Notes under the pieces: model-generated | Seen by the model: the letters and a program-made list of their open reading frames with translations, nothing else | Told to the model about the DNA's origin: nothing | Database searches by the model: none | DNA from: an uncultured SAR86 cluster bacterium | GTDB taxonomy: Bacteria > Pseudomonadota > Gammaproteobacteria > Magnimaribacterales > D2472 | Reading direction: 5' to 3' | DNA: 51,730 nucleotides | NCBI GenBank assembly: GCA_905478015.1 | Contig: CAJQGY010000041.1 | Coordinates: 1 to 51,730 of the forward strand | Position numbers and translations under genes: made by a program | Shown here: piece by piece, positions 134 through 25,581 of the stretch | Numbering within the stretch: position 1 is the first letter of the stretch | Layout: every line of letters begins with the position of its first letter

Positions 134-1235
<1,102 letters not shown>

Positions 1236-1248
1236 TTAGAGTTATTTT

Positions 1249-1536: not shown

Positions 1537-3269
1537 GCTTTTTTATCTTTACCTAGCCATATATCTTTAAGGCTGCCATTTGGTGCAACTAGCATGGGGT
1601 AGACATGTTCAGAAGGGTCTACATAAATATCCACAAATACTAATTTTTCTTTCAAGGAAAACGCTTTTCTTAAACCCTCTTTAAGATCTGAGTTCTTTTC
1701 AATTTTAATGCCCTCATGACCATAAGATCTAGCAAGCTCGACAAAGTTAGGAAGGGAGTTTTGATAAGTGCTTTCAGAATGACGGCCGCCATAATTCATA
1801 TCCTGCCATTGCTTAACCATGCCAAGCGCTTCATTATTTATATTGATAATTTTTATAGGAAGATTGTATTGAAGGCATGTTGATAGCTCTTGAATACACA
1901 TCTGGATGCTTCCCTCCCCAGTAATGCATACAACCTCTTCATTAGGATGAGCTAATTTCACTCCCATGGCTGCTGGTAAACCAAAACCCATTGTTCCCAT
2001 ACTTCCAGAATTTATCCATTTTCTGGGCTCGTCAAAATGATAATATTGTGCTGCAAACATCTGGTGCTGGCCCACATCAGAAGTTACAAAAGCATTACCT
2101 TTGGTTTCCTGATATACATGTTGAACAACTTGTTGAGGTAAGATCATATTGTTATCAGACTGGTCTAAATAAAGATCATGATTTAATCCATGAAGTGCCT
2201 TCCATTCTGAGATTTGATTCAACCAAGGAATAAAATTTTCTGGATCATGATTATTCAACCCATCATTTAACTTATTAATAATTTTTGTTAAAGAGTTTTT
2301 TACATCTCCAAATAAAGCGATGTTTGCTTCAATAATTTTTGAAACAGATGAATAGTCAATATCTAAATGTATTATTTTTGCATTTGGTGCAAATAGGCTT
2401 GGTGTATTAGTAATACGGTCATCAAATCTCGCTCCTATTGCTATAATTAAATCAGCATTATGCATAGCCATATTTGCTTGGTATGTTCCATGCATGCCAA
2501 GCATGCCTAAAAAATGTTCATCAGACGCAGGATAAACCCCAAGACCCATCAATGTATTTGTTACTGGCGCCTTTAAGAGTTTATTTAATTCTATTAATTC
2601 CGATGATGCATCACTAGAAATAGCCCCACCACCAGCATATAGAACTGGTTTTTTTGAAGCTAGAATTGCATCCACTGCCCTTTGAACTTGTTGATCATCC
2701 GGAGATACTGGAGGCTTGTAAGATCTTATGCTTACCTCAGAAGGATAATAATAATTAAATGTTTTATCAGGCGCAGTCATATCTTTGGGTATATCAATGA
2801 CTACAGGTCCCTGTCTTCCAGTCATAGCAATATGAAAAGCCTCTTTTATTACTATCGGGATGTCATTAGGGTCCTCAATAGAAAAACTATGTTTAACAAT
2901 TGGTCTAGATATACCTATCATATCTGTTTCTTGGAATGCATCAGTACCGATTAAGTGGGAGGCCACTTGGCATGAGATAACAACCATAGGGATAGAGTCC
3001 ATAAAGGCAGTTGCAATTCCAGTAACTGCATTAGTTGCTCCAGGACCAGATGTCACTAAAACAACCCCAGGTTTTCCAGTCGATCTAGCATAACCATCTG
3101 CAGCATGAGTTGCGCCTTGTTCGTGCCTTACAAGAATATGCTCAATTTTATCTTGTCTAAATACAGCATCATATACGTGGAGCGCCGCTCCTCCAGGGTA
3201 ACCAAAAATAAGCTCTACACTCTCTTCATGGAGTGCTCGCATTAGCATATCTGCGCCAGATAGTTTCAA
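1533..3269 (-). CDS. ilvB: Acetolactate synthase large (catalytic) subunit
   Basis: ThDP-dependent enzyme that condenses two pyruvates, or pyruvate and 2-oxobutyrate, in the first branched-chain amino acid step. The 578 residues contain FGYPGGAALHVYDA, the ThDP-activating Glu50 in RHEQGATHAADG, and the C-terminal ThDP/Mg region. There the motif reads GEGSIQMCIQELSTC, with Glu in place of the usual GDG Asp. The start appears to be TTG at 3269: residues KLSGADM just after it are conserved in the family, and an in-frame stop lies 6 bases upstream. The only alternative is ATG at 3248. It is the first gene of the ilvBNC operon. No attenuator leader peptide fits in the 65-base gap to rluD. Confidence 0.95.
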   Translation of the reverse strand: MKLSGADMLMRALHEESVELIFGYPGGAALHVYDAVFRQDKIEHILVRHEQGATHAADGYARSTGKPGVVLVTSGPGATNAVTGIATAFMDSIPMVVISCQVASHLIGTDAFQETDMIGISRPIVKHSFSIEDPNDIPIVIKEAFHIAMTGRQGPVVIDIPKDMTAPDKTFNYYYPSEVSIRSYKPPVSPDDQQVQRAVDAILASKKPVLYAGGGAISSDASSELIELNKLLKAPVTNTLMGLGVYPASDEHFLGMLGMHGTYQANMAMHNADLIIAIGARFDDRITNTPSLFAPNAKIIHLDIDYSSVSKIIEANIALFGDVKNSLTKIINKLNDGLNNHDPENFIPWLNQISEWKALHGLNHDLYLDQSDNNMILPQQVVQHVYQETKGNAFVTSDVGQHQMFAAQYYHFDEPRKWINSGSMGTMGFGLPAAMGVKLAHPNEEVVCITGEGSIQMCIQELSTCLQYNLPIKIININNEALGMVKQWQDMNYGGRHSESTYQNSLPNFVELARSYGHEGIKIEKNSDLKEGLRKAFSLKEKLVFVDIYVDPSEHVYPMLVAPNGSLKDIWLGKDKKA

Positions 3270-3334
3270 AACTCAAAAAATTAATATATAAAAAATCAAG
3301 CTTACATTACTTTAAGCCATACGTATCAACATTT

Positions 3335-4267
3335 TTAGAGTTTTTTTAGATTTTCTATTAGATTTTCCATATCTTCAGGAACAGGAGCTTCGTATGTAAT
3401 TATATCTTCTTTATTTTTACTAAAGAAAGATATTTGATGGGCATGCAATGCTTGTCTTGGAAAATTTCTAATTACCTCCACTAGCTCAACTGATGTATCT
3501 TTGGAAATAATTTTTCTAGGGTTATAAGTGCCGTCTCCAATTATAGGCAGTTTTTTTGATGCCAAATGCACCCTTATTTGATGTGTTCTACCTGTCTTTA
3601 TCAAAATATCTAATAAAGAATATCCACCTAAATTTTCTAAAAGCTTAACGAAGGTAAGAGCTTCTTTGCCGTCATCTCTGATAGCAATTTTTGTTCTATT
3701 TTTTTTGTCTCTTCCAAGAGGTTCATTAATTTCAAAACTTCCTAGGGTAGAGCCAGATGAGATAGCTAAATATTTTTTTATAATCTCTCTGCTTTGCATC
3801 ATATTAATAAAATGATTTCTAAACTCTTCTGATCTTGCAACCACAAGTACGCCAGATGTATCTTTATCAAGTCGATGAACTATTCCGCTTCTAGGCAGGT
3901 GCTTAAGTTCTGGATATTTAAATAGAAGTGCATTTGCGAGAGTTCCATCATAACAACCAGATCCAGGATGCATTACTAGGCCAGAAGGTTTGTTAACAAT
4001 AATAAAGTCTTTATTATCATCGAGGATTTCAAAACTTATTTCTTGAGGTTCCCAGGAAACTTTTTTTTCTCTAACAGGGTCAATTGTTATCTCATCTTGG
4101 TAGAAAACCATATCCTTTGGTTTGGCTAATTCATTATTAACTAAGACTCTTCCTTCAAGGATCCATTTTTTTAACTGAGTTCTTGAAAATTCAATAAACA
4201 TTTCTGCAGCAATTTTATCTAATCTGCTTTTGCTATTATTTTCTTCAACAATTTTTGTAATTGACAT
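3335..4267 (-). CDS. rluD: 23S rRNA pseudouridine synthase, RluD type
   Basis: It isomerises uridines in helix 69 of 23S rRNA (positions 1911, 1915 and 1917 in E. coli). It has an N-terminal S4 RNA-binding domain (about residues 13-70, SRLDKIAAEM...GRVLVNN) and a RsuA/RluA catalytic domain with HRLDKDTSG, where Asp134 is the catalytic aspartate. The 310 residues are close to the usual length. It diverges from bamD across an 80-base gap, the same pairing as rluD/bamD in E. coli, which favours RluD over RluA or RluC. Confidence 0.92.
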   Translation of the reverse strand: MSITKIVEENNSKSRLDKIAAEMFIEFSRTQLKKWILEGRVLVNNELAKPKDMVFYQDEITIDPVREKKVSWEPQEISFEILDDNKDFIIVNKPSGLVMHPGSGCYDGTLANALLFKYPELKHLPRSGIVHRLDKDTSGVLVVARSEEFRNHFINMMQSREIIKKYLAISSGSTLGSFEINEPLGRDKKNRTKIAIRDDGKEALTFVKLLENLGGYSLLDILIKTGRTHQIRVHLASKKLPIIGDGTYNPRKIISKDTSVELVEVIRNFPRQALHAHQISFFSKNKEDIITYEAPVPEDMENLIENLKKL

Positions 4268-4347
4268 TGGAACTTATAAGAATTATTTCAATCTAAATAT
4301 AACTTTTAAAACTTTAATACTAATAATAAAGGTAAAATATCAAAATA

Positions 4348-5154
4348 ATGAAAGAATACAAAAATATATTTAAAATATCTTTATTAATCCCACTTGCTGC
4401 GATTTCACTTGCAGGATGCCAGTCAGAAGGCGAGATCATTGAGAGGCCTGAAAAAATATATTATGACCAAGCGCAAAGAAGAATGCTAACTGGTAATTAT
4501 ATTGGTGCGATTGAGGCCTTAGAGACTATAGAAAGTAGATATCCATTTGGCAAATATGCTGAACAAGCTCAAGTTGAATTAATCTATGCCCATTTAATGA
4601 ACTCAGAGCCTGAAGCTGCTCATTCGTCTGCTGAAAAATTTATAAGACTTCACCCTAGACATCCTAATATTGACTATGCATATTTTATGAAAGGCATATC
4701 TAGCTATACAAGAGATAAAAATTTCTTAGTTAGGATTACTGGTACAGATCTTTCTAATAGAGATATATCAGGTGCAAAAGAATCTTTTTCAGAACTCGCA
4801 GAATTTTTGACTAGGTTTCCTGAGAGCCAATATGGTCCTTATGCAAAACAAAGAAGTATATATTTAAGAAATATGATTGCTAGGAATGAGTTAGCTGCAG
4901 CTGACTATTACATAACAAGGAAGGCATATGTTGCATCTATTAGAAGAGCTAACTACGTCTTGGAGAATATTCCAGGATCAAGCGAAAATCTAAGAGCTCT
5001 CAAAATATTATTAGTATCATATGACGCATTGGGATACTCAGAACTTTATGAGGATACCAAAAAAGTAATTGCATTAAACTTTAAGAATGTGGAAGAGCCT
5101 GAAGATGAAAGTTCTTGGTTCTGGACTAATGTGGAAAAAACTAAACCTGAGTAA
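4348..5154 (+). CDS. bamD: Outer-membrane assembly lipoprotein BamD
   Basis: BamD is an essential periplasmic-face lipoprotein of the BAM complex that folds outer-membrane beta-barrels. The signal peptide ends in a lipobox LAGC with acylated Cys24. It is followed by the conserved YYDQAQRRMLTGNYIGAIEALE stretch, split here as YYDQAQRRM and GNYIGAIEALE, and TPR repeats (AIEALETIESRYPFGKYAEQAQ, FIRLHPRHPNIDYAYFMKG). The length of 268 fits. It diverges from rluD as in E. coli. A small membrane-protein gene starts 2 bases after its stop and is probably co-transcribed. Confidence 0.95.
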   Translation: MKEYKNIFKISLLIPLAAISLAGCQSEGEIIERPEKIYYDQAQRRMLTGNYIGAIEALETIESRYPFGKYAEQAQVELIYAHLMNSEPEAAHSSAEKFIRLHPRHPNIDYAYFMKGISSYTRDKNFLVRITGTDLSNRDISGAKESFSELAEFLTRFPESQYGPYAKQRSIYLRNMIARNELAAADYYITRKAYVASIRRANYVLENIPGSSENLRALKILLVSYDALGYSELYEDTKKVIALNFKNVEEPEDESSWFWTNVEKTKPE

Positions 5155-5156
5155 GT

Positions 5157-5381
5157 ATGGCATTGCTTAAAACAATTTTTATAATTGTTCCATTAATAAT
5201 ATTATTTATCTCACTATTCTTTATTATTTCTCTAAGAAATATCTTCCTAAAAAAAGGTCGAAGCAAAGAGATAAAGAACGATATTCTTACCTGCTTTGCA
5301 TGCAATATAAGTGTCCATGAATCTATTGCCCTAAAAAAGAACAAGAAATATTATTGTTCAGAAGACTGTTTTAACTCTTAA
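5157..5381 (+). CDS. Small membrane-anchored Cys-rich protein, PP0621-like
   Basis: A 74-residue protein with one N-terminal transmembrane helix (about residues 3-28) and a short cytoplasmic tail. The tail has paired cysteines (TCFACNISV and YYCSEDCF) that could form a small zinc site. The layout resembles the PP0621 family found in many gammaproteobacteria, whose function is unknown to me. It follows bamD by 2 bases and its 3' end overlaps the convergent RND permease gene by 11 bases. Confidence 0.75.
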   Translation: MALLKTIFIIVPLIILFISLFFIISLRNIFLKKGRSKEIKNDILTCFACNISVHESIALKKNKKYYCSEDCFNS

Positions 5382-8300
5382 CCTTGTTCATAAACATGAA
5401 CATTGCTGGTATGTAAAGTAATGCTAAAAGAGTTGCACCCAAAACTCCAATTGTCATTGCCCATGCAAGTGGCCTAAAGAAAACACTTGTAAATATTAAA
5501 GGGGCAAAGCCTCCTATTGTTGTAACGGATGTGGTGATAATATGCCTCGTGGATCTTATGACTACTTCAGTTATCTCATGTTTTGATATTAGCTTCTTTT
5601 CAGCTTCTTCTTTAATATGGGAAAGAACAATTATAGAATCGTTGATAGAAAGACCAACCAAACCAATAGCTCCAATAGTTGCTATAAAGCCATAGTTTTG
5701 GTTTCCTATTACAAGCCCAAGGAATGATAAGCCCATGCATAAACCGCCAACAGATAGTATTAACATAGTTTGTCTAAAAGAGTTTAAGGCAAAGACGAGG
5801 CCTCCGACTATTAATACTAAATAAAAAAGGAAAGAGGAATATATCTGCCCCTGAGATTCGTTTCTGCTATCAGCTTGCCCAGATGCTTCAATGTAAAAAC
5901 CTTTTGGCAAGGAAGAGATAAAATTATTTACAGGCTCTGCTAAATAACTCTCTGTAGCAGATGGAAGTTTTCCAGTTTCAACCCATCCTTGAACAGTATT
6001 AAGTTTTTGGCTGTCAAATCGAGCTATAACTCCAGATTTTCTTACAATCTTGCTTTTTCCAAAACTATCAATATATTCCAATGAATTGCCTGAAGGAATT
6101 GTTAGGAATCTTGCTTCATCTATAGCGCTATTTGAAGACATTCCTGTGATTCTTATTGGTATTTCTTTTGAACCATCAAGCATTGTGCCAACATTAATTC
6201 CATTACTTACTGAAGATAATTCATTGGTTATAACGTTAGGGTCAATTCCTGAGAAATAAATATTTGAAGAGTCAATTTCAAATTCCAAGCTTGTTGCAAA
6301 ATCAGCAAGCTTGTTTTTTGTAAGAACAATATTAGGGGCGTTGCTTACTATTAATTCTAATTGCTCACCAAGCTTTGCCAAAACCTCTCTATCATTCCCT
6401 ATAATCTTGTATTCGACATCAGCGTCAACTGGAGGACCAGAAAAAAAATTATCAACAAGAATTTTTATGTCTGGATTATCAGCTGTAAGTTTCCTACTTA
6501 ATTTAGGAAGATTATCCATCATTTGATAATAGTCTTTAGCATAAAATACTGCTTCGGCTGTGTTGTTGTTACCCTCTTTGGAATCTCCTCCAACAACATT
6601 CATTAAAACCCTAGGTAAGCCACTTCCAACAAACCAGATGTCCTTTCTTGCAGGGATAAGCTCTGAATCTACAATTTGATTTCTTATATCTAATGCTTTT
6701 TGTAGTGTTTTTTCAGTTGATGTTCCTTGTGGCATTTCAATATTTACTTCGAACATATCACGATCTTGTGGAGGAAAAAAATCCTTAGGAATTGACCCGA
6801 ACAAAATAAAACCAGCTATTGGAAATGCAAGAGCAATCATGATGGCTCTTCTAGGCTTATGATATGCCCAACTGAGAAATTTTCTATATGTAGCAACTAT
6901 TTCTTCATTGTGATATCCCTCTTTAGAAATATCACCCCTGTTTAAAAAATTAACCTTTTCAAGATATGTCATCATTACAGGGACAGCTATAAGAGCAAGG
7001 ATGAGAGATGCAACTATTGACATGATTACGGTCTTAGCAAGGCCTCCTACAAATTCTATGCTAGAGCCTTCTCCAGTAACAATGGGCAAAAATGCGAAAA
7101 CAGTTGTCGCTGTTGCTGCTGCAAGCGGTGCCACTAAATGCTTGGTAGTGACTCTTATTGCTTTTTCAGGAGAAAGTCCTAAAGATCTCCTATGCTTATA
7201 ATCCTCTACAACAATAATCCCATTATCTATTAATAAACCTAAAGCAATAATAATCCCGCTCATCGATGTCATATGCAGCGGAAGTCCTATTAGATTACAT
7301 CCAAAAAGAACTAAAGATACAGAAAAGGGTAAAATTGCAGTTACAACTATTGCAGATCGCAAGCCTAAAAAAAATAAACTAAAAGATAGAACAAAAAATA
7401 TTGCTAAACCAAAACTTTTATAAAGTTCAGAAAACTTTTTATCTGTATAAAATGACTCATCGTATATTTTGTTAATACGGATCTCATCAGGCAATTCTTG
7501 ATTTAACTTTTCAGCAATTGCATCAGCTTTGGCTACATAATCACCAACCCTTTGCGACATGGTTCCAGAAATTGCAACCATTACTGTTTGCTTTCCATCT
7601 ACAAGGATAATCTCTTCTATTGGAGTTACAGGCTCTTTAGAGATTACTGCAATATCTCCTAGGCGAACAAGCTCATCATTATTAAAAACTTTTATTGGGA
7701 TATCTGAGATTTTATTAATATTATCAAGACTATCTTTAAGCTTGAACAGGTATTCAGACTGTGTGTTTGAAATTATGCCTATAGGCTTCTTCGAATCTAG
7801 ACTTCGAATTGTTTTTGATAATTCAGAGAAAGTTAATCCAAGTGAGGATAATTTAGATGAATCAACTCTTATGATTATCTCTTCATCTGAAGCCCCAAAT
7901 ACTTTTAATTTTTCTGTATTGTTTAAGCTATTGAGCTGAGTGACTAGCTGATCCGCTATTCTAGACATCATTACAAATGGAGTCTTTTCTCCGCCAGTCC
8001 ATTGAATACCATACATAACAGTTATTGGCGGTCCGCTTGATCTAATAAGTTTTAAATTTGCTCCTTGAGGAATTAGAGGTTTTACTTGATCGATCTTATC
8101 TTGAACTTCAGACCATGTTTGCTCAATAAGCAATGGATCAAGACTTTGTGCAAATTCAACAACAGTCGTTGAGAAGCCTTGGGTTATGAATGAATCAATC
8201 TCATCAACTTCGGTAACTTCTCTTATCTTTAATTCAAGTTGCTCTAATACCTGAGTTTCTATTCTTTCTGGAGATGAGCCTGGAAGAGTTACAGTAACAG

Positions 8301-8436
8301 CTCCCCAGCGCTGAGCTAATTCAGGATTTTCTTGAACTGGTAATGATAATGCAGATGATATGCCAGCAAGGAGGATAAAAGCTAACGATAAAAAAAGAAC
8401 CCTTGGTCTTTCCAAAAAGATATCTAGTATTTTCAT
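5371..8436 (-). CDS. RND-family efflux pump permease (AcrB-like)
   Basis: Inner-membrane proton-driven transporter subunit of a tripartite efflux pump. The 1021 residues have the expected RND architecture: an N-terminal helix, a periplasmic porter domain, helices TM2-TM6 from about residue 340, a second periplasmic domain, and TM8-TM12. The proton-relay positions differ from AcrB. TM4 reads GLLIDNGIIVV (Asp404-Asn405, where AcrB has DD), and TM10 reads GLSINDSIIVL, where AcrB has GLSAKNAI with Lys940. The gene overlaps the adaptor gene by 4 bases. No outer-membrane channel gene lies here; tolC at 43.3 kb is the likely partner. Substrates are unknown. Confidence 0.93.
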   Translation of the reverse strand: MKILDIFLERPRVLFLSLAFILLAGISSALSLPVQENPELAQRWGAVTVTLPGSSPERIETQVLEQLELKIREVTEVDEIDSFITQGFSTTVVEFAQSLDPLLIEQTWSEVQDKIDQVKPLIPQGANLKLIRSSGPPITVMYGIQWTGGEKTPFVMMSRIADQLVTQLNSLNNTEKLKVFGASDEEIIIRVDSSKLSSLGLTFSELSKTIRSLDSKKPIGIISNTQSEYLFKLKDSLDNINKISDIPIKVFNNDELVRLGDIAVISKEPVTPIEEIILVDGKQTVMVAISGTMSQRVGDYVAKADAIAEKLNQELPDEIRINKIYDESFYTDKKFSELYKSFGLAIFFVLSFSLFFLGLRSAIVVTAILPFSVSLVLFGCNLIGLPLHMTSMSGIIIALGLLIDNGIIVVEDYKHRRSLGLSPEKAIRVTTKHLVAPLAAATATTVFAFLPIVTGEGSSIEFVGGLAKTVIMSIVASLILALIAVPVMMTYLEKVNFLNRGDISKEGYHNEEIVATYRKFLSWAYHKPRRAIMIALAFPIAGFILFGSIPKDFFPPQDRDMFEVNIEMPQGTSTEKTLQKALDIRNQIVDSELIPARKDIWFVGSGLPRVLMNVVGGDSKEGNNNTAEAVFYAKDYYQMMDNLPKLSRKLTADNPDIKILVDNFFSGPPVDADVEYKIIGNDREVLAKLGEQLELIVSNAPNIVLTKNKLADFATSLEFEIDSSNIYFSGIDPNVITNELSSVSNGINVGTMLDGSKEIPIRITGMSSNSAIDEARFLTIPSGNSLEYIDSFGKSKIVRKSGVIARFDSQKLNTVQGWVETGKLPSATESYLAEPVNNFISSLPKGFYIEASGQADSRNESQGQIYSSFLFYLVLIVGGLVFALNSFRQTMLILSVGGLCMGLSFLGLVIGNQNYGFIATIGAIGLVGLSINDSIIVLSHIKEEAEKKLISKHEITEVVIRSTRHIITTSVTTIGGFAPLIFTSVFFRPLAWAMTIGVLGATLLALLYIPAMFMFMNKVKS

Positions 8437-9437
8437 TGACTATCAAGCACCTTGCCTTGAACTATTTTTGAAGCTCCTCCAAGGATAATACTATCTCCTG
8501 AAACAATGGTGCCATTAACAAAAGCATAGTTATCATCAAAATAAATTATTTCAACTAAATCCTTTGTCACTATATTATTTCTTATTGTGTAAAGTGACCA
8601 CAAACCTTGATCAGATTGAGATAAAGATTTTAAAGGAACCCATAATCCTTTAGCATTTTCTTCAATTTTAAGTTTTAGTTTAGTGACAACTCCTGGGCTA
8701 ATAAATTGATCAAATTGAAATATAGCTAATTTCGAATTTGATCCGGTTCTGGACATAGGTGCAACCCTTGTTAAAACCGCATTGTAGGTATTTTCACCAA
8801 CTTTAAATTCATATTCTTCATTAAGATTTAGCTTGTCTAAATATGCTATGGGCAGCGTTACATGCGCCTCAACATAGTCTGAATCAATTACATCTAAGAT
8901 AGGTGCGCCACTATTTATAACTGTTCCTGAATCTAAATACCTACTTTGGACAACGCCGTTAAATGGAGAAACTAGTTTAGTCTGATCTAGCTTTACTAAA
9001 TAAAATTCATACTGAGATTGGGCTGAAAGAAACTCTGAGTTTGCCTCATCCATCTGCTGATCAGACACATGACCATCCACCATAAGATCTTTCACTCTTT
9101 TTAAAATAAGCTTTGATAAATCAAACCTTGCTTTCGCTTGTTTTAATTGCGCAGTAATTTCTCTGCTGTCCAGTTCAGCCAATACTTGCCCTTTTTTAAC
9201 ATCATCACCTATATCCACAAATATAGACGCAACCTTTCCTGGAATCTCAAAAGATATTTTTGATTGTTGTCTTGGATGAAGGATGCCTGGAAATTCTTTA
9301 GTAACATAATATGATTCTTGTAACTGAGCCTTCAGCACTTCAACTGATTGGGCTGAAATATGCTGTGAAAAAAAGATTGTTAATACAGTGATAGGGATAT
9401 ATCTGAGCTTTTTAATGCAGCTTATTTTATTAATCAT
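8433..9437 (-). CDS. RND efflux periplasmic adaptor (membrane fusion protein)
   Basis: A periplasmic adaptor of 334 residues that links the RND permease to an outer-membrane channel. It has an N-terminal signal peptide (to about residue 29, ending SQHISAQ, with no lipobox Cys). The split biotinyl-lipoyl domain is visible in GKVASIFVDIGDDVKKGQVLAELD and VSPFNGVVQSRYLDSGTVI, separated by a coiled-coil hairpin (about residues 100-145), with beta-barrel and membrane-proximal domains after it. It is the first gene of the adaptor-permease operon, transcribed away from the TetR-type gene. Both 19-base operator copies lie in its promoter, so repression by that regulator is likely. Confidence 0.92.
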   Translation of the reverse strand: MINKISCIKKLRYIPITVLTIFFSQHISAQSVEVLKAQLQESYYVTKEFPGILHPRQQSKISFEIPGKVASIFVDIGDDVKKGQVLAELDSREITAQLKQAKARFDLSKLILKRVKDLMVDGHVSDQQMDEANSEFLSAQSQYEFYLVKLDQTKLVSPFNGVVQSRYLDSGTVINSGAPILDVIDSDYVEAHVTLPIAYLDKLNLNEEYEFKVGENTYNAVLTRVAPMSRTGSNSKLAIFQFDQFISPGVVTKLKLKIEENAKGLWVPLKSLSQSDQGLWSLYTIRNNIVTKDLVEIIYFDDNYAFVNGTIVSGDSIILGGASKIVQGKVLDSQ

Positions 9438-9452
9438 AGTTAGTTATAAATC

Positions 9453-9471
9453 ATGTTTACAGTGTCAACAT
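9453..9471. promoter_or_regulatory. Predicted TetR-family operator, copy 1
   Basis: The sequence ATGTTTACAGTGTCAACAT is a near-perfect 19-base palindrome (8 of 9 half-site positions pair around a central base). An identical copy starts 29 bases away and a diverged copy lies upstream of tolC. On the minus strand it contains a consensus -35 hexamer TTGACA (9463-9468), so a bound repressor would block the adaptor promoter. The assignment to the adjacent TetR-type protein is inferred from position and symmetry. Confidence 0.75.
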
Positions 9472-9497
9472 ATTAAACCATATGTTTACAGTGTCAA
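9470..9497 (-). promoter_or_regulatory. Promoter of the RND adaptor-permease operon
   Basis: On the minus strand a perfect -35 TTGACA (9492-9497), embedded in operator copy 2, is followed after 16 bases by a -10-like TAATAT (9470-9475). This would give a leader of about 20-25 bases before the adaptor ATG at 9437. On the plus strand, TTTACA (9485-9490) with TAGAAT (9509-9514) at 18-base spacing could drive the regulator gene, so the operators overlap both directions. Confidence 0.5.
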
Positions 9498-9500
9498 CAT
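9482..9500. promoter_or_regulatory. Predicted TetR-family operator, copy 2
   Basis: An identical 19-base copy of the near-palindrome at 9453-9471, with centres 29 bases apart (close to three helical turns, so on the same DNA face). Two tandem sites fit paired TetR-type dimers. The copy covers the -35 of both predicted divergent promoters, which implies autoregulation of the regulator gene as well as control of the pump. Confidence 0.75.
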
Positions 9501-9536
9501 TAAAGTGTTAGAATATTTTCTTTTTTATCTTTAAAT

Positions 9537-10151
9537 ATGAAGTCTTATCATCACGGAAACTTAAAGCAAGAATTGATTTTATGTGCATGTAAGTTATGTG
9601 AAGAAAATGGGTATGAAACCCTAAGCATGAGATCTATTGCTAAAGAAAGCGGTGTATCTCAGACAGCGCCTTATAGACATTTTGAAACCAAAGAATCTTT
9701 ATATGCCTCTGTTGCTATGGAAGGTTTTAAAAAGCTTAGTAAAGTTACTAGCATCGATACATCCCAAAAAGTCACTAAGAAAAAATTGATTGAGACTAGT
9801 GTTAATTATATTAATTTTGGTCTTGAGAATGCCAATACATATGATTTAATGTTTGGGACTGCAGTTGGAGATTTTTCAAATTATCCCGAGTTATTAGATT
9901 GTGCCAATGCTACATATGAAAATATGAGGCTTAGCTTCGCCAAACTCGCTAACGATTCTGAGGAGATTATTGCATATAAATGCATAACTCTATGGTCTAT
10001 GTTGCACGGGTTAGTAGGAATTTTAAGGAAAGTTGCTATTGCCGGTGTTGATGGTGAGCCTTTGAGGGGACCAATGACTAGTGCGAGCTTGATTGGAGAT
10101 AATCTAGATTTACATCTAGATAAGGTTTTAACTGGTATTATTCAGAACTAA
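9537..10151 (+). CDS. TetR/AcrR-family transcriptional repressor (WHG-type C-terminal domain)
   Basis: A 204-residue regulator with an N-terminal TetR helix-turn-helix (LSMRSIAKESGVSQTAPYRHFETKESLYASV, in two parts LSMRSIAKESGVSQ and PYRHFETKESLY, about residues 25-58). The C-terminal ligand-binding region has YDLMFG and LWSMLHGLVGI, typical of the WHG/TetR_C_13 subgroup. It diverges from the RND adaptor gene, with two identical palindromic operators between them, the standard layout of local efflux repressors. It very likely represses the pump and itself, and by operator similarity perhaps tolC. The inducer is unknown. Its 3' end overlaps the convergent DUF4399 gene by 14 bases. Confidence 0.92.
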   Translation: MKSYHHGNLKQELILCACKLCEENGYETLSMRSIAKESGVSQTAPYRHFETKESLYASVAMEGFKKLSKVTSIDTSQKVTKKKLIETSVNYINFGLENANTYDLMFGTAVGDFSNYPELLDCANATYENMRLSFAKLANDSEEIIAYKCITLWSMLHGLVGILRKVAIAGVDGEPLRGPMTSASLIGDNLDLHLDKVLTGIIQN

Positions 10152-10767
10152 CTACTTCAATGGTTATTTTTTCTGAGACTATAGGCCCAATATCAATTCC
10201 ACCAAAAGGGACTTGCACTCCATGAATCGAAGAACCTAACATTAGCTGTAAAGTATGTACTCCAGGCTCCAACTCTATAATTGCCTCTGTTTGCCCTGCA
10301 CCAAAATGTATGTGAGTATCATCAAAAGGTATGAATGAAGTAGGGAGTATTTCTCTATCAACAAGCAAGTGATGATGACCACTAACAAAACATTTATTAT
10401 CTGGGACTTTGCTTGACCCAGCTGGATTAATTTCAATACTTTCTGATCCAAATATCACCTTTATGCTTTTTGAGTCTGAAACATACAAATTTTTCGGGGA
10501 TAAAATATTAACTTTTGGTTCAGTACATCCATCAATATTTAGGTCAGAGTATGTATCAGTATTATCAATATTTAGGTCAGAGTATGTATCAGTATTATTT
10601 ATCTCAACTTCACTTTCAGAGGGGCCTGATACAACAGTATCTACTGCAGTAACTTCGGCGCCTCCAACAATCATTACTCCCCACACTTTAGGTGGGATTA
10701 TTCCAGAATGTGCTGCACACCCGCTTAAAAAGAAACATGAAATTCCAACACTTAAAAATCTACGCAT
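10138..10767 (-). CDS. DUF4399 lipoprotein
   Basis: Predicted lipoprotein of about 209 residues. I choose ATG at 10767 (preceded by a weak GGAT) because it puts a normal signal peptide (MRRFLSVGISCFFLSGC) directly before a lipobox LSGC; an in-frame ATG at 10782 would add five residues. The C-terminal half carries DUF4399 hallmarks: SGHHHLLVD, THIHFGAGQTEAIIEL and PGVHTLQLMLG. The linker contains a perfect duplication of NTDTYSDLNID. The function of DUF4399 is unknown to me; the His-rich motifs suggest metal binding. It overlaps the end of the flavin-reductase gene by 8 bases. Confidence 0.8.
   Translation of the reverse strand: MRRFLSVGISCFFLSGCAAHSGIIPPKVWGVMIVGGAEVTAVDTVVSGPSESEVEINNTDTYSDLNIDNTDTYSDLNIDGCTEPKVNILSPKNLYVSDSKSIKVIFGSESIEINPAGSSKVPDNKCFVSGHHHLLVDREILPTSFIPFDDTHIHFGAGQTEAIIELEPGVHTLQLMLGSSIHGVQVPFGGIDIGPIVSEKITIEVVSSE
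10531..10596. repeat. Perfect 33-base tandem duplication inside the DUF4399 gene
   Basis: Bases 10531-10563 and 10564-10596 are identical 33-base units beginning ATCAATATTTAGG. The unit is a multiple of three, so the reading frame is kept and the peptide NTDTYSDLNID is repeated twice in the linker between lipobox and DUF4399 domain. This looks like recent slippage or duplication. Confidence 0.97.
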
Positions 10768-14833: not shown

Positions 14834-15154
14834 TTATTTAACTTGTGTAATGAATTCCTGTAATTGTTGTTTAGTTAAAGCTCCGATTTCAGTGCCGATA
14901 GCTTCACCATTTTTAAAAAGCATTAATGTTGGTATTGAACGAATGCCATACTTTACCGCTGTATCTCTATTTGAATCAACATCCATTTTACAAACCTTGA
15001 GATCTGTATTTTCATTCGCAATCTCTTGAATTGTTGGGGCTAACTGCTTGCAAGGCCCGCACCATTCTGCCCAAAAATCAACTAAAACTGGCTTTTCAGA
15101 ATTCAATACATCTTTATCAAAGCTATCTTGGTTTACTATATTTACATTACTCAT
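14834..15154 (-). CDS. trxA: Thioredoxin
   Basis: Cytoplasmic disulfide reductase of 106 residues with the WCGPC active site (Cys32, Cys35) in FWAEWCGPCKQLAP and the cis-proline loop IRSIPTLMLF. There is no signal peptide. The start overlaps the hemB stop by 4 bases. rho follows after 116 bases with its own promoter. The trxA-rho order is the standard gammaproteobacterial one. Confidence 0.97.
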   Translation of the reverse strand: MSNVNIVNQDSFDKDVLNSEKPVLVDFWAEWCGPCKQLAPTIQEIANENTDLKVCKMDVDSNRDTAVKYGIRSIPTLMLFKNGEAIGTEIGALTKQQLQEFITQVK

Positions 15155-17803: not shown

Positions 17804-19402
17804 CTAGCCTGATGCATAACTTAGGGCTGCATTTAGCAGCCTTTTTGTATACTCTTCTTTTGGAGAATCAAAAACATTCTTAGAAGGACCTGCTTCAATA
17901 ATTTCTCCCTGTTTCATTACAAATATAGTATCTGACATTGATCTTATTACTTTTAAATCATGGCTTATAAATAGATAAGTTAGAGAGTATTCATTTTGCA
18001 ATTCTTTGAGTAGGCTTATTACTTGTATTTGTATTGAACGATCTAGGGCTGAGGTAGGTTCATCTAAAATCATAAATGCTGGGCTCATAATAAGAGATCG
18101 CGCGATAGCAATTCTTTGTCTTTGACCACCGGAAAACTCATGTGGGTACTTAGATTTGTCAGACGGGCTTATACCTACATCATTTAAAACCTTATCAATT
18201 TTTATATTTCTTTCATTTTTAGAGAAAGAAAAGTGTACCCCTAAACCTTCACCAACTATCTCACCTATTGTCATTCTAGGAGAAAGAGAGCCATAAGGGT
18301 CTTGAAAGATAATTTGAATATCTTTTTTTAACTTCTTAGTTTGCTGTGTTGTGTTTTTATTAATATCATTTCCATCATAAATAATATTCCCTTCATAAGG
18401 TATTAGATTAGCGATAGCTCTTCCTAGAGTTGATTTTCCTGAACCTGATTCACCAACAAGGCCAATGGTAGAATTTTCTTTTATAGAAAAAGATATATTT
18501 TTCACTGCATGAAAAGATTCTTTCTTAAATGGATTTGAAGAAGGAATATTGTAAAAAACATTTAGGTTTTTTATTTCTAGTAAATCCTTCTCATTTGTAG
18601 AAAAATTTTCTTTTGGTTGAGGTTCTGCATCTAATAATTTTTGGGTATACGCATGCTGAGGATTATGAAATACAGTTTTTGTATTTCCTTTTTCAACAAT
18701 CTTTCCATCCTTCATTACACAGACTTCATCTGAAAACTTTTCAACCAAACCAAGGTCATGGGTGATAAATAGGATTGACATGCCAAGCTCTTTTTGAAGT
18801 TTGGTCATCAAGTCTAGGATTTGGGCCTGAATGGTTACATCTAAAGCCGTAGTTGGTTCGTCAGCGATAAGAAGGTCGGGTTTGTTAACAAGTGCCATGG
18901 CAATCATGATCCTCTGCCTTTGGCCACCAGATAGCTCGTGTGGATAAGCAGCAAATCTTCTATCAACGTCATCAATTTCAACTAATCTCATTAATTTTTT
19001 TGCTTCTTCATTGGCTTCAATTTTTGATTTTTTTGAATGAAGAAGGATTGATTCTGTAATTTGATTGCCTACTCTGTGGTAAGGGTTCAAAGATGTCATT
19101 GGCTCCTGAAATACCATAGATATAATATTGCCACGTATCTTAATAAGCTCTTTGGTTGAGGCGTCTATAACTTCTTTATCATTAAAAAGAATAGATGAAT
19201 TCTTTGAATATGAGGCCTGAGGTCTTGGGAGTAATTGAAGAATTGACATCGCTGTTACAGATTTTCCTGATCCTGATTCACCTACAAGAGCCAGGGTTTG
19301 ATTTCTTTCAATATCAAAGCTTATATTATCTACTGCTAGGAAGCTTTTATCTCTAACTTCGAAGCTAATGCTTAGGTCTTTAACCTTTAAAATTTTACTC
19401 AT
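17804..19402 (-). CDS. ABC transporter ATPase with two fused nucleotide-binding domains (peptide-type, YejF-like)
   Basis: A 532-residue ATPase with two complete DppD/DppF-type domains. The first has Walker A GESGSGKS (residues 41-48), signature [15 protein letters not shown] and [11 protein letters not shown]. The second (from about residue 272) repeats [24 protein letters not shown] and LDEPTSALD. Such fusions (YejF, GsiA-like) energise oligopeptide or microcin importers. No permease or binding-protein gene is in the window, so the membrane partners must lie elsewhere. It overlaps the upstream esterase gene by 4 bases. Confidence 0.9.
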
Positions 19403-20409
19403 AGTACTTTCTTATATTCATCTAAAAAATTATCTACTGCTAATTTTGCTTTCCTCAATCTACTCATAGAAGCAAAGCCATGTATTAATGATGGATAATG
19501 TAATTGGTGAATATTAATATGTTTTTGATGTAATAGGTAGGCATATTTCTCAGCCTCATCGCATAGTGGATCAAATCCAGCTGTAACAATAATTGATTTT
19601 GGAAATCTGTCTTGATTAAAGACTCCCTTAAGAAGATCAAAACACGGGTTAGCCTTATCATCACTGTTATTTGACAATTTGCTCCATATCCAGCGCATAT
19701 TTGAGGCTGATAAAAAATAATTAGATTCATACAGTTTAAATGATTCTGTATTACAGCTTGGGCTAATCATTGGGTAGATAAGCAATTGACTATCTGGAAG
19801 TAAAAAATCTTCTTGTGCTAGCTTGTATGATAATGATGCAGCTAAATGACCTCCGGCACTATCTCCGCATAAGCTTACATTTTTTGATGGAACTCCTCTA
19901 TTTAATAGCCATTTGTATGACTCAAAGGCATCATCAAGTGCAGCAGGAAATTGATTTTCTGGTGATAATGAATAATCTAATGAATATATTTCTGCTCCTA
20001 AATAAGAAGAGTAATACATCAATAATTCATGATGGGTTTTAATGCTTCCAAAAGCATATCCTCCTCCATGAAAATATAAAATTGACTTACTGGTATTAAT
20101 TTTAACTGGAGAGTATTTTCTTATATTTAGTCTGGACTGATTAATTCTAAAGTCTTCATAAGAAACGCTTGTAACTGGTTTGGCTACAGTCGATATGAAA
20201 TTGGCTCTTAGTTCATAGGAAGACCTAATCCTTGGAATATCAATATTTACGATTTCTTCTAAATTTTTAGTTGGTATGAACTTTAAAAAAATTTTGGTTT
20301 GAGTATCTAACATGTGCCCTCGGGAAATAGTCTTTCCAAATATTCCAATAAATTTAAAGCACCAAGTTGGCATAAAGAAGAAAAAATTTAAGATAATTTT
20401 TTGAAACAT
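19399..20409 (-). CDS. Alpha/beta hydrolase, hormone-sensitive-lipase (HSL) family esterase
   Basis: A 336-residue carboxylesterase-type hydrolase. The oxyanion motif HGGGYAFGS starts at residue 114, the nucleophile elbow GDSAGGH has Ser184, and Asp280 (GFDPLCDEA) and His310 (IHGFAS) complete the triad. The N-terminus is hydrophobic (residues 1-25), so membrane association is possible. It heads a minus-strand run that continues into the ABC ATPase, ilvD, hemB and trxA. Its natural substrate cannot be inferred. Confidence 0.88.
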   Translation of the reverse strand: MFQKIILNFFFFMPTWCFKFIGIFGKTISRGHMLDTQTKIFLKFIPTKNLEEIVNIDIPRIRSSYELRANFISTVAKPVTSVSYEDFRINQSRLNIRKYSPVKINTSKSILYFHGGGYAFGSIKTHHELLMYYSSYLGAEIYSLDYSLSPENQFPAALDDAFESYKWLLNRGVPSKNVSLCGDSAGGHLAASLSYKLAQEDFLLPDSQLLIYPMISPSCNTESFKLYESNYFLSASNMRWIWSKLSNNSDDKANPCFDLLKGVFNQDRFPKSIIVTAGFDPLCDEAEKYAYLLHQKHINIHQLHYPSLIHGFASMSRLRKAKLAVDNFLDEYKKVL

Positions 20410-20478: not shown

Positions 20479-20907
20479 ATGACAAAAACATTTAAAGCAC
20501 TGTTATTAATTATTTTTACAACACATGCAAATTATGCAGGCGCCTTTCTTAATAAGAATGAAATTATTTTAAGTGCTTCTGAGGCTTTCATTATTTCAGG
20601 TTATGAAAAGAATAATTCAGTGTTTGTGAGCTGGTTGATTGAAGATGGTTACTATATGTATAAAAAATCCTTTAAGTTTATTAACTCAAATCAAGAGTAT
20701 GATTTTAAAATTTTAAACTCAAATGAAACAACTTTTAGTGACGAATACTTTGGAGAAACTCAAATATTTAAGGGTAAGCTTGCTCTTAGTTTAGAGCTAG
20801 ACAGAGGCTACAATAAAGAAAATATATTGCTATACTTTCAAGGCTGCTCAGAATCAGGTTTCTGCTACCCGTTACAAGAATTAAAACTATCCGATATAAT
20901 CTTTTAA
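20479..20907 (+). CDS. Stand-alone DsbD N-terminal (alpha) domain protein
   Basis: A periplasmic protein of 142 residues. I start it at ATG 20479 because MTKTFKALLLIIFTTHANYA is a clear signal peptide; an upstream in-frame ATG at 20401 would bury it. The mature part matches the DsbD alpha immunoglobulin-like domain: WLIEDGYYMYKKSFKF, EYFGETQIFKG, and YFQGCSESGFCYP with the redox pair Cys123 and Cys129. The transmembrane beta and C-terminal gamma domains of DsbD are absent, and the next gene starts 42 bases on. In pseudomonads full-length dsbD sits just before aroQ-accB-accC, so this looks like a reduced dsbD. Confidence 0.82.
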   Translation: MTKTFKALLLIIFTTHANYAGAFLNKNEIILSASEAFIISGYEKNNSVFVSWLIEDGYYMYKKSFKFINSNQEYDFKILNSNETTFSDEYFGETQIFKGKLALSLELDRGYNKENILLYFQGCSESGFCYPLQELKLSDIIF

Positions 20908-20949: not shown

Positions 20950-21384
20950 ATGAAAATATTAGTCATCAATGGTCCAAATCTAAATCTTCTTGGTAAAAGA
21001 GAGAGCAATCACTACGGAGATATAGATTTAAATAAAATTGAAAACAATCTCACTGATTTGGCTCAAATGCATAAAAGTAAAATTAGCTTTTTTCAAAGCA
21101 ATGCTGAGCATGAGATAGTGGATGAGATACAGAAATATATTGATGGCAGCATTGATGCAATAATCATAAACCCTGGAGCATTTACTCATACTAGCATAGC
21201 AATAAGAGATGCCCTCCTTGCTGTTGGCATTCCTTTCTATGAAGTTCATATCTCCAATATATTTGCTAGAGAGGAATTCAGACATCATTCATATTTCTCA
21301 GATAAAGCAACTGGTGTAATATGTGGGCTTGGGGCCTCTGGATATGAGTACGCTCTTTTAGATGCAATTTTAAAAAATAAATAA
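20950..21384 (+). CDS. aroQ: 3-dehydroquinate dehydratase, type II
   Basis: Shikimate-pathway enzyme of 144 residues that dehydrates 3-dehydroquinate. It has the type II motifs [12 protein letters not shown], the flexible-loop Arg, the active Tyr region (HYGDIDL), [16 protein letters not shown], and [17 protein letters not shown] with catalytic His. It precedes accB by 5 bases, in the common aroQ-accB-accC operon. Confidence 0.96.
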
Positions 21385-21389
21385 TAATT

Positions 21390-21830
21390 ATGGATATAAG
21401 AAAAATAAAAAAACTAATAGAGATGCTTCAGGAATCAGATCTTACTGAGATAGAAGTAGGTCAAGGAGATGAGTCGGTTAGAATTACAAGAGGCGGGGTT
21501 GCTCAAACAGTATCTGTTGCGCCATCTAATAATCAAGTTGTTCAAAATGCCGCTGGAATACCTCAACAAATAAATAATCAAACAGAATTAGTGTCAGGTC
21601 AGGCAATTAAATCACCTATAGTTGGTACTTTTTATAGAAGGCCGGGACCTGATAAAAATCCATTTATAAAAGTTGGAGATTCAGTAGAGGTCGGCGATGT
21701 CCTATGTATTATTGAAGCTATGAAAATGATGAATGAAATTAAATCTGAGTATAGTGGAAAAGTAACCTCCATAAACGCAGAGGATGGCGATCCAATTGAA
21801 TTTGATCAACATATAATAACAATAGAGTAG
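21390..21830 (+). CDS. accB: Biotin carboxyl carrier protein of acetyl-CoA carboxylase
   Basis: Carries biotin between the carboxylase and carboxyltransferase of acetyl-CoA carboxylase, the first step of fatty acid synthesis. The 146 residues have an N-terminal helical segment, a flexible linker rich in Asn, Gln and Pro (about 45-68), and the C-terminal biotinyl domain with EAMKMMNEI, where Lys112 is biotinylated. The stop is immediately followed by the accC ATG. Confidence 0.97.
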
Positions 21831-23183
21831 ATGTCTTATAAAGTTCTCATTGCTAATAGAGGAGAGATAGCCCTGCGTGCCATGAGAGCATGTAAAGAGT
21901 TGGGCATTCAAACCGTTGCTGTATATTCAAATGCGGATAAGGATTTGAAACATTTAAAGTTTGCTGATGAGAGTGTCTGTATTGGCCCAGCGTCACCAGC
22001 ATTAAGCTATCTAAATGTTGCGTCAATTCTCTCTGCCGCAGAATTAACTGAAGTTGATGCTATATATCCAGGATATGGATTTCTTGCTGAAGATTCTAAT
22101 TTTGCTGAAATGTGTGAAAAAAGTGGTTTTAAATTTATAGGTCCAAGTTCAGATATTATCAGGAAAATGGGAGATAAGATCACTGCCAAGACATTAGCTG
22201 AAAAATCAGGTATCCAGATTGTCCCGGGATATAAGGGTGCTTTGCCTGAGGACGAATCAGAGTTATCAAAGATAGTTGATGATATTGGTTATCCAATAAT
22301 GATCAAAGCCACAGCAGGTGGTGGCGGAAGAGGAATGAGGATGGTAAGGGATGAGTCTGAACTGTTTAATTCCCTTGAAGTTACGATACAGGAAGCACTT
22401 AATGCATTCGGAAATGGGACAGTTTATTTAGAAAAATTTATTGAAAATCCTAGGCATGTTGAAGTTCAAATTGTTGGTGATGGTAAGGGGCAAGCCATAC
22501 ATTTAGGGACTAGAGATTGCAGCATGCAAAGAAAGCATCAGAAAATCATAGAGGAAGCTCCTGCACTCGATGTGGACGAAAAATCATTAAATCAAACACT
22601 TCATGCATGCGTAGACCTTTGCAAAGAAATTAAATATGAGGGAGTTGGCACGATAGAGTTCCTATATGAAAATGAAGAATTTTATTTCATAGAAATGAAT
22701 ACTCGTATTCAAGTTGAGCATCCAGTGACTGAAATGATCACAGGATATGATCTTGTAAAAGCACAATTAAGAATAGCGCTTGGGATGAAAATAGAATTAA
22801 ACCAGGATGAGATAGATTTTAAAGGTCATGCAATTGAATGTAGGATAAATGCAGAAGACCCACGAACATTTCAACCATCTCCTGGATTAATTACTAAAAT
22901 GCATACTCCTGGTGGTTTTGGCATAAGGTATGATTCACATATCTATGGAGGGTATAAAGTTCCGCCATACTATGATTCACTTTTATCAAAAATAATAACT
23001 CTTGCAAATACAAGAGAATCTGCAATAAAAAGAATGCTAAGTGCGCTTGATGAGTTCTTTGTTCAAGGCATTAAAACAAATCACTCTCTTCATCAAGATG
23101 TATTGAATGATAAAACTTTTATAGAGAACAAACATACGATTAACTATCTTGAGACAGAATTTTTGCCTAACAACTATGAGTGA
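21831..23183 (+). CDS. accC: Biotin carboxylase subunit of acetyl-CoA carboxylase
   Basis: ATP-grasp enzyme that carboxylates biotin on AccB. The 450 residues show the N-terminal [20 protein letters not shown], the glycine-rich loop [41 protein letters not shown] (in two parts) and RINAEDP. It starts directly after the accB stop and its end overlaps leuS by 8 bases, so translation is coupled through the operon. In pseudomonads prmA follows accC; here leuS does. Confidence 0.97.
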
Positions 23184-25581
23184 ATATAACCCATCCAAAA
23201 TAGAAGAATCAATCCAAAAAATTTGGAGAGATGAAGAGCGATTTAAATCAGTTCCTGATAAAAGAGAAAAATTTTATTGCCTATCAATGTTTCCTTATCC
23301 GTCAGGCAAGCTTCATATGGGGCATGTCAGAAACTACACAATTGGTGATGTTATTTCCAGATATAAGAAAATGAAAGGATTCAATGTCTTTCAACCAATG
23401 GGATGGGATGCATTTGGTTTGCCCGCAGAAAACGCAGCAATAGCCAATAACGTAAGTCCATCAGAATGGACTAAACAGAATATTGAGCATATGAAAGGTC
23501 AATTAAATTCCCTTGGTCTTGGGTATGATTGGTCTAAAGAATTGAGAACTTGTGAGCCTACTTACTATAAGTGGGAGCAACTTCTTTTTAAGAAATTCCA
23601 TGAAAAAGGTCTTGTTTATAAGAAGAAATCTTTTGTGAATTGGGATCCTAAAGACGAAACAGTTCTAGCAAATGAACAGGTTATTGATGGCAAGGGATGG
23701 AGATCAGGTGCCCAAGTTGAGATTAAGGAAATTGATCAATGGTTTATCAAAATAACTGATTATGCAGATGAGCTTTTAGATTCCTTAGATGGATTAGATT
23801 GGCCAGAAAATGTTAAGACAATGCAAAGAAATTGGATTGGTAAATCTAATGGTGCGCACATCAAATTTAAGCTTGAACATTCCAATGACTATCTAACAAT
23901 ATTTTCAACAAGACCAGATACTGTATTTGGTGCAAGTTTTTTAGCGATTTCACCGCAACATGAAATCTCTATTAAGCTGGGTGAATCAGACTCTGATATA
24001 AGAAGTTTCTTAATTAAATGCAAAGAAGTAAAGGCTGCTGAAGCAGATATGGCAAAAGCTGAAAAACTTGGGATTGAGACTGGCCTAAATGTCATTCATC
24101 CATTAACAGGAGATAAAATACCATTATGGATAGGTAATTTTGTTCTACTTGATTATGGAACTGGAGTTGTAATGGGGGTTCCAGGCCATGATCAAAGAGA
24201 TTTCGAATTTGCATCAAAATATAATTTAGATATCAAACAGGTTATTGACGGAAAAAGTGATGAATTGCCTTTACTTGAAAAAGGCAAGCTTCTTAACTCA
24301 GGTAAATATAATGGGCTAGAGTCAGAAGATGCTATTGCCAAAATTATTGAAGAACTTAAAGAATCTAACCTCGGAGAAGGTTTAGTCCAATTTAGATTAA
24401 GAGATTGGGGTGTAAGCAGGCAAAGGTACTGGGGCTGTCCTATACCTGTTCTATACAATGATGGGATTCCATCTCTAGTTGATGAGAGTGAGTTGCCTGT
24501 TGAACTTCCCGAACTTCCTATGGGCTCTGGGCCAATTCCATTAAGTCAAAATAATGAGTTCATCAACTCTAAAGAAGGCTATAAGAGAGAAACAGATACT
24601 TTTGATACATTTATGGATTCATCTTGGTACTATGCGCGATTCCCATCTGCGGATAATAATGATCAAGCATTTGATAAAAATTCTAATTATTGGTTACCTG
24701 TTGATTTATATATTGGAGGTATTGAGCACGCCATTCTTCATTTACTTTACTCACGATTTTTTCATAAGGCATTAAGAGATATTGGTCTTGTAAATGGTGA
24801 TGAACCATTTAAAAAGCTTCTAACTCAGGGCATGGTTTTAAAAGATGGTGCAAAGATGTCAAAGTCTAAAGGGAATACTGTCGACCCTCAGGCATATATT
24901 GATAAGTATGGAGCAGATACTGTCAGACTGTATATGATGTTTACTTCACCTCCAGAGCAAAGCCTTGAATGGTCTGAGTCTTCTGTTGAGGGATCTTCAA
25001 GGTTCCTAAAGAAACTATGGCACCTAATTAATGGTCGCAAATATAAAATAATTGATGAGCCGCAATCTTTAAATAAGAATCAGAAAGATTTGAGAAGGAA
25101 AGCGCATACCTCTATTCTTAAAATTATGAATGACTATGAAACAAGACATTCATTCAACACTGCAATTGCAGCCATTATGGAACTTTTTAACTCAATACCT
25201 GAATCATTTAAAAGAGATAATCCAAGTGAAGCTGAAATTTTTTGTTTAAATGAAACAATTATTTTTATTCTCAAGGCAATTCATCCAATAGCACCGCATG
25301 TTTCAGAATATTTATGGAATAATTTCACAGATGGTTCGCTTGGTAGAATTGATTCTTCTTGGCCATTTGCAGATAAAACTCTAATGGAAGCTGAAAGCTT
25401 TCAGCTTGTAATTCAAGTAAATGGCAAAGTTAGGGGGAAGGTTGAGATTGAAAAAACTCTTTCCCAAGAAGAAATAGAAAGCACTGCTAAGGCTGTTGAA
25501 AACATTAAAGCAAATATAGAAAATCAAACTATAAGAAAAGTTATTTACATCAAAGAAAAGATTATTAATTTTGTGATATAG
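23176..25581 (+). CDS. leuS: Leucyl-tRNA synthetase
   Basis: Class I aminoacyl-tRNA synthetase of about 801 residues from ATG 23176. This start is chosen because [17 protein letters not shown] matches the family N-terminus; the upstream in-frame ATG at 23149 would add nine residues inside accC. HIGH-type motif [12 protein letters not shown], an inserted CP1 editing domain ([27 protein letters not shown]), and KMSKSKGN are all present, with the C-terminal anticodon-binding domain. lptE and holA follow, as in E. coli. Confidence 0.97.

Follow-up and report, generated by a model that had tools for sequence, protein, structure and literature searches.

A stand-alone DsbD alpha domain in SAR86 bacteria and an ScsB-type reductase as its candidate electron donor

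A gene of the window (the whole stretch of DNA analysed: 51,730 nucleotides of an uncultured SAR86 cluster bacterium, contig CAJQGY010000041.1 of assembly GCA_905478015.1) encodes a protein that is confirmed to carry one complete DsbD alpha domain (nDsbD). Its domain content, predicted fold, kept active site, purifying selection, genomic slot and descent were established computationally, as was the co-occurrence of the alpha protein with an ScsB-like protein, CcmG and DsbC in the SAR86 order. The protein is a genuine nDsbD that stands alone and is conserved; a known system has been split, with a likely change of the electron donor. DsbD is a membrane protein that supplies the cell envelope with reducing power, and this well-known one-piece reductant machine appears to be run as separate parts in these ocean bacteria. 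In the open-licence literature, no report on a SAR86 DsbD or on a stand-alone or truncated DsbD alpha domain was found; the match for SAR86 together with DsbD was unrelated, judged by title and abstract, and those for SAR86 together with cytochrome c maturation were, judged by their titles, all unrelated.

The gene, its product and its neighbourhood

The open reading frame runs from an ATG at 20479 to a stop codon at 20905-20907. The features of the gene and its surroundings are as follows (window coordinates):

14834..15154, minus strand: thioredoxin beside rho (PF00085, E 5e-35; the adjacent gene has Rho domains)
19399..20409, minus strand: alpha/beta hydrolase, divergent upstream neighbour of the alpha gene (PF07859, E 4e-51)
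20479..20907, plus strand: DsbD alpha domain encoded on its own (142 aa; a signal peptide, then one DsbD_N)
20479..20544, plus strand: signal peptide, approximately residues 1-22 (read by eye; model helix 4-23, pLDDT approximately 58)
20740..20754, plus strand: cap loop D-E-Y-F-G, residues 88-92 (aligns with E. coli nDsbD 68-72)
20845..20847, plus strand: redox Cys123, corresponding to E. coli C103 (kept in 61/61 rows)
20863..20865, plus strand: redox Cys129, corresponding to E. coli C109 (kept in 61/61 rows)
20950..21384, plus strand: aroQ, class II dehydroquinase, marking the ancestral dsbD slot (PF01220, E 8e-57)
21390..21830, plus strand: accB, biotin carboxyl carrier protein (PF00364)
21831..23183, plus strand: accC, biotin carboxylase (PF00289, PF02786, PF02785)
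23176..25581, plus strand: leuS, leucyl-tRNA synthetase (PF13603, PF00133)

The initial annotation had read the gene as a signal peptide plus the DsbD alpha domain only, with both redox cysteines present, and Pfam, phmmer and the predicted fold agree on this. The sole Pfam family recognised was DsbD_N (PF11412; residues 30-134, E 5.7e-19, 68.7 bits at a cut-off of 25); the membrane domain (PF02683) and the C-terminal thioredoxin domain are both absent from the protein, which ends 13 residues past the second redox cysteine and scored 91.7 bits with the full-protein DsbD model NF001419, below the cut-off of 330. The hydrophobic N-terminus is followed by ANYAGA, and a simple pattern scan of the 61 aligned rows (see below) gave no match to a lipobox; the stand-alone nDsbD is presumably a soluble periplasmic protein. 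In the phmmer comparison with E. coli nDsbD (1l6p, E 4.6e-14), Cys123 and Cys129 aligned on the nDsbD cysteine pair (numbering of C103, C109 and cap loop 68-72 as given in an excerpt of PMC7347389), and all nine matches in the PDB (E up to 1) were DsbD N-domain entries. The AlphaFold2 model, calculated from a 49-row alignment, reached a mean pLDDT of 87 (block means of 88-98 from residue 31). A comparison of the predicted structure with DsbD alpha had been proposed as a check: the best 18 PDB fold matches were all nDsbD (E from 2.4e-9 up to 4.1e-7; target-based TM-scores of 0.63-0.75), and the ScsB N-domain 6c29 followed far lower (E 5.4e-3).

A spacing of 42 bp separates the alpha gene from aroQ, followed by accB, accC and leuS; the claimed position directly before aroQ-accB-accC was borne out by the Pfam identities of these genes. 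Between 20300 and 21000, six promoter-like sites were counted (3.7 in shuffled sequences, sd 2.0), and the scan for terminators in this range found none.

Distribution in SAR86 and the aroQ slot

The window protein was matched in 151 of the 203 genomes of the SAR86 order, representing 21 of its 22 genera; among the matches listed, every alpha match sits in a frame of 75-208 aa. Among named organisms, its nearest relatives are in SAR86 cluster bacteria. Of genomes at least 90% complete, 34/40 gave an alpha match: four of the six others belong to family f4 (see below), one (G027) has the alpha by profile, and one (G014) has two DsbD_N places. DsbD_N was present in 192/203 genomes, mostly at two places each, the frames among the matches listed being either short (approximately 136-183 aa) or long (mostly approximately 640-716 aa).

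From the 151 gene-bearing genomes, 60 larger loci spread over the genera were fetched and aligned together with the window (61 rows, 60 distinct). In all 60 SAR86 loci (families f1-f3), aroQ directly follows the stand-alone alpha, with a spacing of 10-89 bp in 58; the aroQ start was seemingly taken too early in the other two. A set of 80 named loci comprised 35 stand-alone alphas of 136-168 aa, 34 of them directly before aroQ, and 45 DsbD frames of 561-638 aa from enterobacteria and vibrios, none of which had aroQ nearby within the stretch fetched. In other families of the class, aroQ-accB-accC lies 112-2,033 bp downstream of full-length dsbD in 15 of 20 loci, picked among the best matches listed, and tandem alphas occur in 10 of these 20. 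The proposal that the gene occupies the ancestral dsbD slot is therefore right for many relatives but does not extend to the enterobacteria and vibrios.

A separate observation concerns the genes downstream of aroQ. At 16 of 94 aroQ-bearing SAR86 loci (some genomes are seemingly in both sets, e.g. L089/L251), accC is missing and accB is shortened to 51-58 aa (L084, L086, L089, L090, L251, L254, L255, L258, L270, L287, L288, L291, L294, L308, L312, L314). The stub consists of a nearly unchanging N-terminal stretch (MDIRKIKTLIEMLEESNLKEIEV...) and a variable C-tail, lacks the biotin domain and is intact in 16/16. The best biotin-carboxylase match of genome G092 is a 640-aa protein that resembles an acyl-CoA carboxylase subunit.

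Selection and descent

Cys123, Cys129, Asp88, Gly92 and Gly122 are invariant in the 61-row alignment, cap residue 90 is Phe or Tyr in 60 rows, and length varies at the ends of the stand-alone alphas. Nei-Gojobori dN/dS was 0.06-0.46, i.e. below 0.5, in all 44 pairs that were at least 50% and less than 99.5% identical and had a computable dS; the pairs are not independent, since several have few changes or a common lineage. For the window and its sister L062, dN/dS was 0.28 at a dS of 0.79. The test for purifying selection and cysteine retention suggested beforehand thus came out in favor of a maintained protein.

The same data bear on the reading of the gene as a decaying dsbD fragment, for which the missing membrane and C-terminal domains, the varying ends and the alpha not seen in f4 might be adduced. 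It was rejected as hardly credible in view of the occurrence in 21 of 22 genera, the one slot in 60/60 loci, the cysteines kept in every row and the low dN/dS in every pair, which agrees with the earlier view that kept cysteines speak against simple decay. A full-length dsbD elsewhere, together with cysteine loss in relatives, had been named as the sign of such a fragment: no canonical DsbD membrane part was present among the matches listed, and the cysteines are kept.

The alpha tree comprised 95 alpha domains (among them 35 of the 61 stand-alone rows, selected to cover the range, and those of 10 of the 45 long named proteins) at 145 columns, few for so many rows; in it, the 35 stand-alones formed one group (94/98, just below the tool's star) within the DsbD alphas. 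They joined the single-alpha DsbD of enterobacteria and vibrios and that of G241 at 96/86, and joined neither of the tandem alpha copies. Tree and synteny agree with the initial annotation that a DsbD was cut down to its alpha domain; most simply, the membrane and gamma domains would have been lost once, in the SAR86 ancestor.

A derivation of the gene as a copy of the SAR86 ScsB-like N-domain, and not as a DsbD remnant, was also considered, both being members of the Pfam family DsbD_N. This origin is extremely improbable and was rejected, as the 20 SAR86 ScsB N-domains split from the DsbD alphas at 100/100 in the alpha tree; moreover, the cysteine spacing is C-x5-C in the alpha and C-x3-C in ScsB, and the fold search places nDsbD far above 6c29.

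Candidate electron donor

Without the membrane domain, the initial annotation had argued, the protein needs another donor, for example a CcdA-like protein. The search for CcdA/ScsB-like membrane domains retained the first part of this statement and replaced the example: the DsbD_TM proteins among the matches listed in the SAR86 order are all ScsB-like (shortest frame 324 aa), and none is CcdA-sized. DsbD_TM was matched in 174/203 genomes and in 39 of the 40 good ones, nearly always once. Each of three long SAR86 proteins scanned contains DsbD_N, DsbD_TM and Thioredoxin_7; for the N-domain of one of them, ScsB 6c29 was matched with E 1.3e-11, whereas no DsbD alpha appeared up to E 0.1. Six cysteines (C-x3-C, two membrane cysteines, C-x2-C) are kept in all 20 ScsB-like proteins fetched. 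In the tree of the membrane plus thioredoxin part, which is midpoint-rooted and in which the tool flagged the f77 and f14 branches as long, the proteins of SAR86, f4, f14 and f77 stand together against 19 canonical DsbDs (100/100).

The contigs of the window's own genome (G000) gave no DsbD_TM match. A true loss of the membrane reductase was rejected here, because scsB lies between contig ends: of the 10.3-kb scsB region of sister locus L122, query positions 12-782 match G000:C45 to the contig's last base and positions 4801-10309 match G000:C14 to the contig's last base, while positions 783-4800, with scsB at 2447-4426, fall between the two contig ends.

The alpha and scsB genes are found at different loci and are not neighbours, and no scs-like cluster was recognised around SAR86 scsB in gene lists read by eye. 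In 5/20 loci of f1-f3 and 5/5 loci of f4 (L127, L129, L130, L140, L141, L335-L339), a redoxin gene with the motif EWTNHxCP lies next to scsB; the redoxin may be a periplasmic peroxiredoxin-like client.

We consider it fairly probable that the SAR86 system is a split DsbD, in which the alpha is kept as a separate protein that takes electrons from the ScsB-type pump and hands them to CcmG and DsbC. In this scheme, DsbD would have been cut down to nDsbD and kept as a separate periplasmic protein; thioredoxin (possibly the one encoded at 14834..15154, as first electron source of the chain) would feed the ScsB-like protein, with its membrane domain and its C-terminal thioredoxin domain; from there electrons would pass to the stand-alone nDsbD and on to CcmG, for cytochrome c maturation, and to DsbC, for disulfide isomerisation. 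ScsB as donor and both clients are deduced. The separate loci of alpha and scsB, and a 92% complete genome (G137) that has the alpha without a DsbD_TM match, would also suit a donor other than ScsB, i.e. an unrecognised membrane reductase; this is improbable, however, in view of the near-constant presence of DsbD_TM in good genomes, the lack of a CcdA-sized protein among the matches listed and the assembly gap behind the seeming lack in G000.

Clients and the family without the alpha

CcmG (TIGR00385) was above the cut-off in 22 of 26 genomes and just under it in G182 and G195; DsbC_N was found in 25 of 26 genomes tested. In G000, CcmG lies on C12 in an apparent ccm cluster (by eye; dsbE family, 143 bits), and the DsbC match reached 169 bits, below the model cut-off of 215. 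Genome G092, read to 98.4% of one contig, holds one each of ScsB, alpha, clear CcmG, DsbC and clear thioredoxin; in this stretch, a single CcdA-like query gave no match, and the DsbD query picked up nothing beyond the alpha and thioredoxin.

Several findings count against the split-DsbD scheme. The SAR86 ScsB-like protein has an N-domain CxxxC pair of its own (20/20), which leaves no obvious need for a second acceptor; its membrane-plus-thioredoxin part is distant from that of DsbD in the tree; G022 and G040 have the alpha and only weak CcmG matches; and, according to an excerpt of PMC7347389, cDsbD is the sole legitimate partner of oxidised nDsbD in E. coli.

Family f4 (21 genomes) also counts against it. 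Exactly one DsbD_N place was found in 17 of its genomes and none in four; 19 gave an aroQ match, and in the f4 loci fetched, which cover up to 1.5 kb upstream of aroQ (a few start at contig ends), no alpha was seen before that gene. Its ScsB keeps the six cysteines in 5/5 proteins, and all four genomes tested have matches to CcmG (narrowly below the cut-off in two) as well as to DsbC; the alpha is therefore dispensable there. In the midpoint-rooted membrane-part tree, f4 and f1 group together at 98/94, consistent with f4 having lost the alpha later.

It might be assumed that the ScsB N-domain alone reduces CcmG and DsbC and that nDsbD serves another periplasmic client or acts as a thiol reservoir: the CxxxC pair of the ScsB N-domain is kept in the 20 SAR86 proteins and the five f4 proteins, and f4 manages without a stand-alone alpha. 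We regard this assumption as unlikely. SAR86 still has DsbC and CcmG, the established clients of nDsbD; the alpha has preserved its cap loop and its two cysteines, as expected for the old partners; and the reduction of CcmG by ScsB is stated as not analysed in PMC4460558 and PMC4491210 (2015).

Alpha domains outside SAR86

Two families of the class serve as precedents for the split-DsbD scheme. In f14, tandem DsbD-type alphas are fused to an ScsB-type membrane plus thioredoxin part in all three genomes read (L195, L340, L341), and in G212 the fusion gene is followed by aroQ (L195 at the aroQ slot); the ScsB-type part of G212 is 41.6% identical to that of a SAR86 protein, compared with 21-27% for the other class proteins compared. 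In f77, both genomes (G275, G386) encode alpha-only proteins upstream of aroQ (DsbD_N 107 and 104 bits), in L334 with a TlpA-like gene between alpha and aroQ, and a 400-aa ScsB-type protein without N-domain (L333, L334, L352, L353). A 193-aa protein (P0003) that matches DsbD_N weakly (33.6 bits at a cut-off of 25) is encoded downstream of the latter; the pairing of the ScsB-type protein with the slot alpha is therefore not forced, and f77 was dropped as a decisive case on account of this separate N-domain-like neighbour. G275 also has a 245-aa, CcdA-sized DsbD_TM match. Together, f14 and f77 show that alpha domains exist apart from their own membrane part, without proving the partners.

A wider reading is nearly as easily believed as doubted: the SAR86 system would be a DsbD of mixed origin that has discarded its membrane half and uses the alpha as a free adapter. 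One ScsB-type pump, equipped with an N-domain of its own, would then supply two adapters that can replace each other, and in this way reach CcmG and DsbC too; the fusion in f14 and the split in f77 would represent other states of the modular design.

Short alpha frames outside SAR86 were found in at least eight genomes (G249, G275, G280, G354, G359, G386, G410, G440); that of G354 runs off the contig end, and the coordinates of those in G280 and G410 place them at contig ends. G249 encodes a lipoprotein-like stand-alone alpha of 156 aa (L331:3905-4375), and G359 a 275-aa alpha that ends in an apparent remnant of the DsbD membrane part (L330:3663-4490); both genomes have a full-length DsbD elsewhere. 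The one stand-alone among the 35 named that does not precede aroQ belongs to a Pseudomonadales bacterium (L304:5887-6348): a complete alpha of 153 aa, with 224 bp between its stop codon and the end of the contig and with neighbours unlike those of SAR86.

Comparison with known systems

Nature seems to have run an experiment in SAR86: both clients, DsbC and CcmG, are kept, DsbD is reduced to nDsbD, and ScsB is the only pump type among the matches listed, so that adapter swapping between reductase classes becomes directly testable. Katzen and Beckwith reportedly found that DsbD domains expressed separately cooperate in E. coli. The SAR86 protein resembles nDsbD of E. coli (1l6p) and N. meningitidis (6dps) in Pfam domain, predicted fold, C-x5-C spacing and cap loop, and the clients DsbC and CcmG are present; it differs in that it forms a polypeptide by itself, is led by a signal peptide, and has neither a membrane nor a gamma domain in the gene. 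The likeness to ScsB (P. mirabilis N-domain 6c29) belongs to the SAR86 donor candidate with its N-domain, DsbD_TM and thioredoxin domain, whereas the stand-alone alpha does not group with ScsB N-domains (100/100). As with CcdA, the DsbD function would be spread over several proteins; CcdA, however, is the membrane part alone, and the SAR86 alpha protein has no DsbD_TM. Legionella LpDsbD2, as described in an excerpt of PMC4491210, is another DsbD with an uncoupled alpha domain, but in the opposite sense: there the alpha is missing, whereas in SAR86 the alpha is what remains.
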